Assembly (NCBI GenBank): GCA_002897635.1
Contig: BDTD01000022.1
Coordinates: forward strand, 1-64,000
Reading direction: 5' to 3'
Source of the DNA: a bacterium BMS3Abin11
Lineage (GTDB): Bacteria > Pseudomonadota > Gammaproteobacteria > BMS3Bbin11
DNA length: 64,000 nucleotides
Below are positions 33,642 to 52,838 of the stretch, in pieces; positions within the stretch are counted from its first letter, which is position 1; each line of letters begins with the position of its first letter. The notes beneath the pieces were generated by a model. That model searched no databases. It was not told the origin of the DNA and saw nothing but the letters and a program-made list of their open reading frames with translations. A program made the position numbers and the translations under genes.

Positions 33642-33971
33642 GATGAGCTGGCGGGGTGTGAACTCAGGCATGTGTGGTGTAGCGACTTATCTGCACCTAT
33701 CAGCGCGGTGAGTAACCATTAGCTGTAAGGCACGTTTCGCCGGGAATGGCATGCCCTTTCCAAGAGACGTAACGCCGCAGATGATGGTTACTCGCCTCGC
33801 CCGAAGGGAGCCCCACAAATGACTCAACCCTGCGTTACAGCCTTTGTTAAGGGAACAGCCATTAACTGCAGGCTGTGCCTTGTCTTGAGCCATTTGTGGG
33901 ACTCTGATATGTACAGATAAGTCGTTACACCACACTACCTCAAACAGCACACCCCGAAACCCCAGCTCATC
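33642..33971. repeat. Structured inverted-repeat element E1
   Basis: About 330 bp without a credible gene. Imperfect outer arms of 60-70 bp (33642-33703 and 33904-33971) share GATGAGCTGG, GTGTGGTGTA and CGACTTATCTG blocks in opposite orientation. The core holds two hairpin units in opposite orientation (33727-33780 plus, 33829-33881 minus), a CCCGAAGGG mini-hairpin and an enclosing stem (33808-33821 with 33891-33904). The core is clearly homologous to that of E2 at 52573-52838, but the outer arms are not. Confidence 0.85.
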
Positions 33972-52128: not shown

Positions 52129-52579
52129 TCTGCAGCTTGCACTGAATGATGAAAAAATACCCGATAAGGCACGATTTCAGGTATGGGCGGATGCGGCGGC
52201 AGACGCCTGTCGGTGTACTGATAAAGAACTGACTATTCGCGTGACCGATACAGTGGAAGGTGCAGAGATGAATGATCGTTACCGGCATAAGCCGGGTCCT
52301 ACCAATGTTCTGTCTTTCCCGTTTGAGGACCCGCCTGGAGTAAAAACCAGTATTCTTGGAGACCTTGCGATCTGTGCGCCTGTGGTTCAGCGTGAAGCTG
52401 TAGAACAGCATAAATCCTCCGATGCACACTGGGCACATATGCTGGTTCATGGCGTGCTACACCTTTGCGGCTATGATCATATTGATCAGTCAGGGGCTGA
52501 CGAGATGGAATCACTGGAAACCGGCATTATTACCGGGCTGGGTTTTCCTCCACCTTATGATGAACAGAAGCAAGTGTAG
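52106..52579 (+). CDS. ybeY: YbeY endoribonuclease, rRNA maturation factor
   Basis: 157 residues if the ATG at 52106 is used; the ATG at 52112 is equally possible, both preceded by an AGTGGGG ribosome site. The zinc motif is HMLVHGVLHLCGYDH, the H-x3-H-x5-H signature of the family. RYRHKPGPTNVLSFPFE and LGDLAIC are the other conserved blocks. It acts in 16S rRNA 3' processing and ribosome quality control. The stop TAG lies inside the left terminal repeat of element E2. Confidence 0.95.
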   Translation: MVMSLKIDLQLALNDEKIPDKARFQVWADAAADACRCTDKELTIRVTDTVEGAEMNDRYRHKPGPTNVLSFPFEDPPGVKTSILGDLAICAPVVQREAVEQHKSSDAHWAHMLVHGVLHLCGYDHIDQSGADEMESLETGIITGLGFPPPYDEQKQV

Positions 52580-52838
52580 TGTATTGCGTTGTTTGGCGAT
52601 ATAGAATCCCGCAAAAACCGCAAGTCAAGGCGTAGCTCGTCGGCAATGGTCACTCCCTTGCCAAGAGCTACAACGCAGGATTGCTGTTTTTGCGGGATTC
52701 CCTTCGGGCACAAAGAGAAGCCGTCATCTGCAGCGTTACGTTCCTTGAAAAGGGGATGGCCATTTCCTGCGAAACGATGCCTTGCAGCTAACGGCTTATC
52801 GTTGCGCTATTTCGCCAAACAACGCAATACACTACACT
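52573..52838. repeat. Structured inverted-repeat element E2
   Basis: 266 bp with perfect 27-bp terminal inverted repeats (52573-52599 and 52812-52838, beginning AGTGTAGTGTATTGCG). The core has a perfect 15-bp stem (GAATCCCGCAAAAAC at 52604-52618 with 52686-52700) enclosing a hairpin unit (52627-52679), a CCCTTCGGG mini-hairpin, and a second hairpin unit on the other strand (52729-52782). The core matches that of E1 (33642-33971) in reverse orientation, while the terminal repeats differ. It separates ybeY from corC, ending 9 bp before the corC ATG. Confidence 0.9.

Follow-up and report, generated by a model that had tools for sequence, protein, structure and literature searches.

E1 and E2, two repeated elements in the 64,000-nucleotide stretch of bacterial DNA analysed here (the window), are best read as non-autonomous, MITE-like transposons belonging to a large group in Pseudomonadota, with ends served in trans by transposases and an internal arm kept for recognition of its folded strand. 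The probability of this reading is roughly 0.75. The inverted ends would pair as an outer stem around one or two internal arms, transposases would act in trans on those ends, and the ends would follow whichever transposase is at hand. The arm would be kept because it is recognised as a folded single strand, most likely by a protein aiding persistence or movement of the element. Recognition of a folded single strand is likely, whether as RNA or as DNA. The group is apparently new to description: searches of the literature, some of them with the end sequences entered as text, turned up no account of it in an incomplete library from which most subscription journals are missing. A covariance-model search, a covariation test and comparisons with Rfam and with REP/RAYT repeats, all proposed in an earlier note on the window, were carried out and are reported below.

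Layout of E1 and E2

E1 and E2 share one plan, two arms in opposite orientation between 32-nt inverted ends with a complementarity of 97% in E2 and 91% in E1 (Table 1). With both strands read, E2 has the boundaries, inverted ends and opposed arms that the earlier note gave it; the inverted repeat is 32 nt in place of the 27 bp stated there, and the unit measures 49-51 nt, not 53-54 nt. Each arm is a long stem that holds a conserved AAGGC/AACGC internal loop, another stem, another internal loop rich in A and a TGG-N-CCC-type loop. Within the window, the covariance model matches these four arms and no others, with E values from 1.6e-20 to 3.9e-17. The ends of E1 and E2 had been called unrelated; both carry AGTGTRGTGT (E1, AGTGTGGTGT...; homologous E2, AGTGTAGTGT...), and the two elements align over their whole length, as they also do with 11 other copies from the host and related genomes.

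Table 1. Positions of the two elements, their parts and associated features (plain numbers are window positions; C numbers are other places)
Feature	Position	Strand	Remarks
E2, 266 bp	52573..52838	.	between ybeY and corC-like gene
E2 left terminal inverted repeat	52573..52604	+	
E2 arm A	52605..52698	+	enclosing stem and unit; model R1 match, 89.8 bits
Unit in E2 arm A	AAGGC 52627-52631, AACGC 52672-52676		
E2 linker CCCTTCGGG joining both arms	52700..52708	+	sequence
E2 arm B, opposite orientation	52711..52805	-	unit 52733-52783; model R1 match, 77.3 bits
E2 right terminal inverted repeat	52807..52838	+	
E1 proper, 264 bp	33672..33935	.	
E1 left terminal inverted repeat	33672..33703	+	
E1 first arm	33705..33797	+	model R1 match, 77.4 bits
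E1 linker CCCGAAGGG	33800..33808	+	sequence
E1 second arm, opposite orientation	33810..33903	-	model R1 match, 90.7 bits
E1 right terminal inverted repeat	33904..33935	+	
Host-repeat palindrome, left half, outside E1	33642..33671	+	copies without E1 elsewhere
Host-repeat palindrome, right half, outside E1	33936..33971	+	copies without E1 elsewhere
Host-repeat copies in G000	C30:28911, C23:54724, C19:2604, C14:34604, C3:20622		
Target duplication TGAA	C3:15236		
Target duplication TAAA	C9:32644		
Target duplication CTAA	C6:89523, C7:60450, C3:51521, C18:101920		

The upstream ybeY-like ORF takes its TAG stop (52577-52579) from the left end of E2. In the related genome G003 the orthologous gene gap lacks E2, and there the ybeY-like ORF ends ...CTGTAG with a stop of its own and has a C-terminus different from that in the window.

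The outer repeat of about 65 bp earlier ascribed to E1 is made up of its own 32-nt ends together with the arms of another palindromic repeat. That E1 sits inside another repeat stands, this composite being present at two places, but E1 and E2 do not serve as an example of unrelated ends. The host repeat, GATGAGCTGGCGGGGTGTGAACTC...CACACCCCGAAACCCCAGCTCATC, occurs without E1 at the five places in Table 1 and at others; it has a 68-bp palindrome and flanks that are conserved, about 260-275 bp when C30 is compared with C23. The second composite of E1 and host repeat (C15:106844-107174) is 92% identical to that in the window, and the two places align locally over about 545 bp, approximately the extent of E1 and its host repeat together, beyond which the flanks do not align. 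Since the alignment stops at the composite edges, it appears that E1 and the host repeat spread together, either by moving or through recombination between host-repeat copies. Such spread may be one route to new outer ends, their later use by a transposase being hypothetical.

End families, mobility and range

The first reading's interpretation is partly supported, and its claim that one fold is carried by elements with different ends holds in a wider form. In the host genome at least five kinds of end surround the arm: GTGTRGTG (E1 and E2), GTRCTCYTTCAA, ACTAAGCCGAACC, GGRACCTCTGATYAAT, with one or two arms, and GGGCACCTCTATTAAT, one-armed and about 165 bp. Other genomes add CTAGTGTCCTGTC, TAGTGGGCCAC, TAGGGTCTGTTGMCGTTTC, TATACCCAAGCC and others. 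Terminal inverted repeats are present in all end families, and the copies read are 52-415 bp long. In Pseudomonas profundi, TAGGGTCTGTT ends enclose 52 bp without an arm, about 155 bp with one arm (two copies read, one with an internal N), 266 bp with two arms, or about 363 bp with a further hairpin within an arm loop.

Several individual loci illustrate rearrangement of arms and ends. Within P. profundi and Stutzerimonas nitrititolerans (L224-L243), identical ends surround no arm, one arm or two, and some copies carry an extra hairpin inserted in an arm loop. At C16:21878-22330 of G000 (L223), insertion of a GTGTTCCTTCAACC element in a GTGTAGTG element gives four arms in a row. A chimeric remnant at C25:77553 of the same genome (L220) has the left end GTGTAGTG and a right end resembling the ACTAAGCC family.

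Two end families, GGGCACC and GGRACC, are flanked on both sides by equal, non-palindromic 4-bp words (examples in Table 1) and are MITEs by the usual criteria, a matching insertion sequence having been found for one of the two. The resident insertion sequence L316, with an IS5-family transposase (NF033581, E 6.3e-72), has the ends GGGCACCTCTATTTAGT/GGGCATCTCTATTTAGT with ATAA duplicated on both sides, and shares its 13 terminal bases, GGGCACCTCTATT, with the one-armed GGGCACC family. No arm was found within L316. These MITEs are probably moved in trans by an IS5-type transposase.

The end family of E1 and E2 passes as MITE in part. The elements of the group are short (<500 bp) and non-coding: by simple ORF calls in the host genome, 65 of 66 placed copies are intergenic, 50 between tandem, 10 between divergent and 5 between convergent genes. 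At termini of the E1/E2 type, AG...CT, a T precedes and an A follows in 55 of 80 copies, which were picked for AG...CT from many end types and genomes; a 2-bp TA duplication would look the same there as a blunt insertion between T and A. A search of the host genome for an insertion sequence with the ends of E1 and E2 (GTGTRGTG) gave none: solo ends occur, and no pair surrounds a transposase. Four places with solo ends were read as candidate parts of an autonomous element; none brackets a transposase, and one is chimeric between two end families. IS630/mariner was set aside as mobiliser in the host genome, which has no DDE_3 gene. In Pseudomonas and Stutzerimonas, the matches listed include no pair of TAGGGTCTGTT ends 1-3 kb apart that would mark an autonomous element, short spacings being the only ones present.

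Cataloguing of repeats by sequence or by ends misses the group: nucleotide search of the 2.67-Mb host genome gives about ten related places only, whereas the covariance model gives 112 arm matches at E<=0.1, almost every one with an E value well under that limit, in about 84 places. Of 299 sampled Pseudomonadota genomes, 59 also contain model matches (E <= 1e-5). Counts for named genomes are 76 arms in Stutzerimonas nitrititolerans GL14, 107 in Sedimenticola hydrogenitrophicus SN1189 and 51 in Thiohalobacter thiocyanaticus. Among the matches listed in a pattern scan, the arm is present in Stutzerimonas, Pseudomonas, Marinobacter, Alcanivorax, Microbulbifer, Thioalkalivibrio, Thiohalobacter, Sedimenticola, Ca. 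Thiodiazotropha, Wenzhouxiangella, Comamonas, a Rhodocyclales MAG and a zetaproteobacterial MAG. One Pseudomonas copy matches four plasmid records. No arm was found in E. coli genomes or in phages, and the exact arm pattern has no match in 2.9 million viral contigs. The group is one of Pseudomonadota, mainly Gammaproteobacteria, and is mainly chromosomal.

Comparison with Rfam gives no match at the curated score in the window, E2 yielding sub-threshold noise only. If the arm has a function of its own, Rfam lacks a widespread structured motif, and the end families would offer a natural experiment on transposase switching by non-autonomous transposons. Tentatively, and at somewhat less than even odds, the arm may be a structured module able to pass between elements, a motif of folded RNA or single-stranded DNA with its own function, swapped among unrelated small transposons that differ in ends and in target duplications across Pseudomonadota, with selection acting on the module and not on the ends.

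The folding strand and its possible role

The stems of the arm covary while its loops are conserved, as the earlier note had proposed from four units, and the score lies far above both shuffled and slid controls. Alignment A1, comprised of 47 diverse arms with their enclosing stems and the basis of the arm covariance model, displays both-sided change in 29 of 32 pairs, with 90.3% of cells paired (57.0% shuffled) and 493 compensated cells (151 in shuffles). Its covariation score is 0.813 against 0.202 shuffled, 0 of 500 shuffles being as high, and is <=0.18 when the partner is slid by 1-3 columns. For the 101 model-found arms, in an alignment fitted to structure, the score is 1.011 against 0.230. 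A1 was collected with a pattern fixing AAGGC and AACGC, so that their invariance in A1 is by construction and the model inherits this bias. Among 37 arms less than 75% identical, and with the model still leaning toward AAGGC/AACGC loops, the CAAGGC and AACGC columns are 83-100% conserved, compared with about 27-62% in the enclosing stem.

Wobble pairs distinguish the two strands. Across 56 distinct enclosing stems of 18 pairs each, read on the AAGGC strand, 861 cells are Watson-Crick, 78 are G.T/T.G and 14 are A.C/C.A; three columns hold 49 of the 78 wobble cells, and without those columns the counts are 29 and 10. Since an A.C on the AAGGC strand corresponds to a G.T on its complement, the bias indicates that it is the AAGGC strand that folds, and folding of this strand is what is kept.

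The arms may be kept as RNA, the sense arm folding in read-through transcripts where it would stabilise or protect the message or recruit an RNA-binding protein, making insertions less harmful. Wobble tolerance on one strand with recurrent U.G positions is typical of RNA, and arms in opposite orientation would place one in sense whichever way the element is read. The location of nearly all placed copies outside called ORFs, most between tandem genes, is consistent with such a role, and transcripts of other MITE families are reported to act on neighbouring mRNAs (PMC2229807). However, the arm has no Rfam match, and in one-armed copies the folding strand is antisense to tandem neighbours in 18 cases versus 5 (23 cases, crude gene calls), which, small as the numbers are, does not favour a role in the mRNA of the neighbours. 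We consider an RNA role of this kind somewhat unlikely.

The antisense bias fits better with arms that work as single-stranded DNA hairpins in transposition or replication, for example as the binding site of a transposase or host protein, comparable to REP hairpins and the ends of IS200/IS605. Folding is strand-specific, as such a role would have it, and the host genome has ten Y1 transposase matches. Against this, the hairpins have no GTAG foot, the 4-bp duplications of two end families and the IS5-type ends are not Y1 features, and the fetched flanks of Y1 genes hold no arm, for which reason Y1 transposases were rejected as partners of the arm. A role as single-stranded DNA in these processes is unlikely. 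The ten matches include C9:163028, C36:49183, C5:37694, C23:2322 and C37:50238; several are alike and small (111-147-aa frame), with no arms nearby.

Mutational correction of palindromes could account for some of the stem covariation. The full form of this explanation, in which the fold is under no selection and template switching with gene conversion re-matches palindromes to give apparent covariation, draws on the outer ends, which also covary within elements, and on armless 52-54 bp copies and nested hairpins, which show that palindromes are easily made and lost here. Correction would also mend mismatched internal loops, yet these remain unpaired and conserved, and it should act equally on both strands, whereas the wobble counts differ as 78 to 14. 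Covariation without selection is quite improbable.

Comparison with known repeats

The elements are not REP/BIME. Mobilisation by RAYT transposases as repeats of that type is very improbable: though palindromic, mostly intergenic and with units in opposite orientation, in a genome with Y1 genes, they are 160-400 bp long with long inverted ends, their aligned copies have no GTAG or CGTC foot on a 20-40 nt hairpin, the fetched Y1-gene flanks are without arms, and DDE-type 4-bp duplications already contradict it for two end families. The earlier note's view of a fold kept on one strand by compensatory change is upheld; its likening of the elements to BIMEs is not supported. REP/BIMEs with RAYTs (PMC3733652, PMC2817692) are likewise extragenic palindromes, occur as opposite dimers and are possibly recognised as single strands; they differ in their 20-40 bp units, tetranucleotide foot and Y1 transposase, in place of the inverted ends and IS5-type features seen here.

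Three further sets of repeats are set apart by description. The Caulobacter CIR repeats (PMC2229807) also have two long stem-loop arms with a linker, but are about 110 bp, alphaproteobacterial, contain GANTC and have no end-to-end stem. The R0, R2, R6 and other intergenic repeats of P. fluorescens (PMC2718517), alike in their intergenic location, inverted repeats, IS-like ends and hairpins, differ in their listed sizes and structures (a single inverted repeat). QMITE1 and QMITE2 of Coxiella (PMC5896051) are likewise MITEs of Gammaproteobacteria, fold stably and occur in about 50 copies; their duplications have other lengths, and QMITE1 is reported to be without relatives elsewhere.

Type II MITEs (PMC10969869), e.g. 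MITEAba12 with ISAba12 (PMC6382973), are similarly short, non-coding and present in many copies, with target duplications and the ends of a resident insertion sequence. Among the elements here, two families carry 4-bp duplications and others have TA at their ends. The usual definition of a MITE rests on its ends, whereas here a structured internal arm is common to several end families and to several classes of Pseudomonadota.
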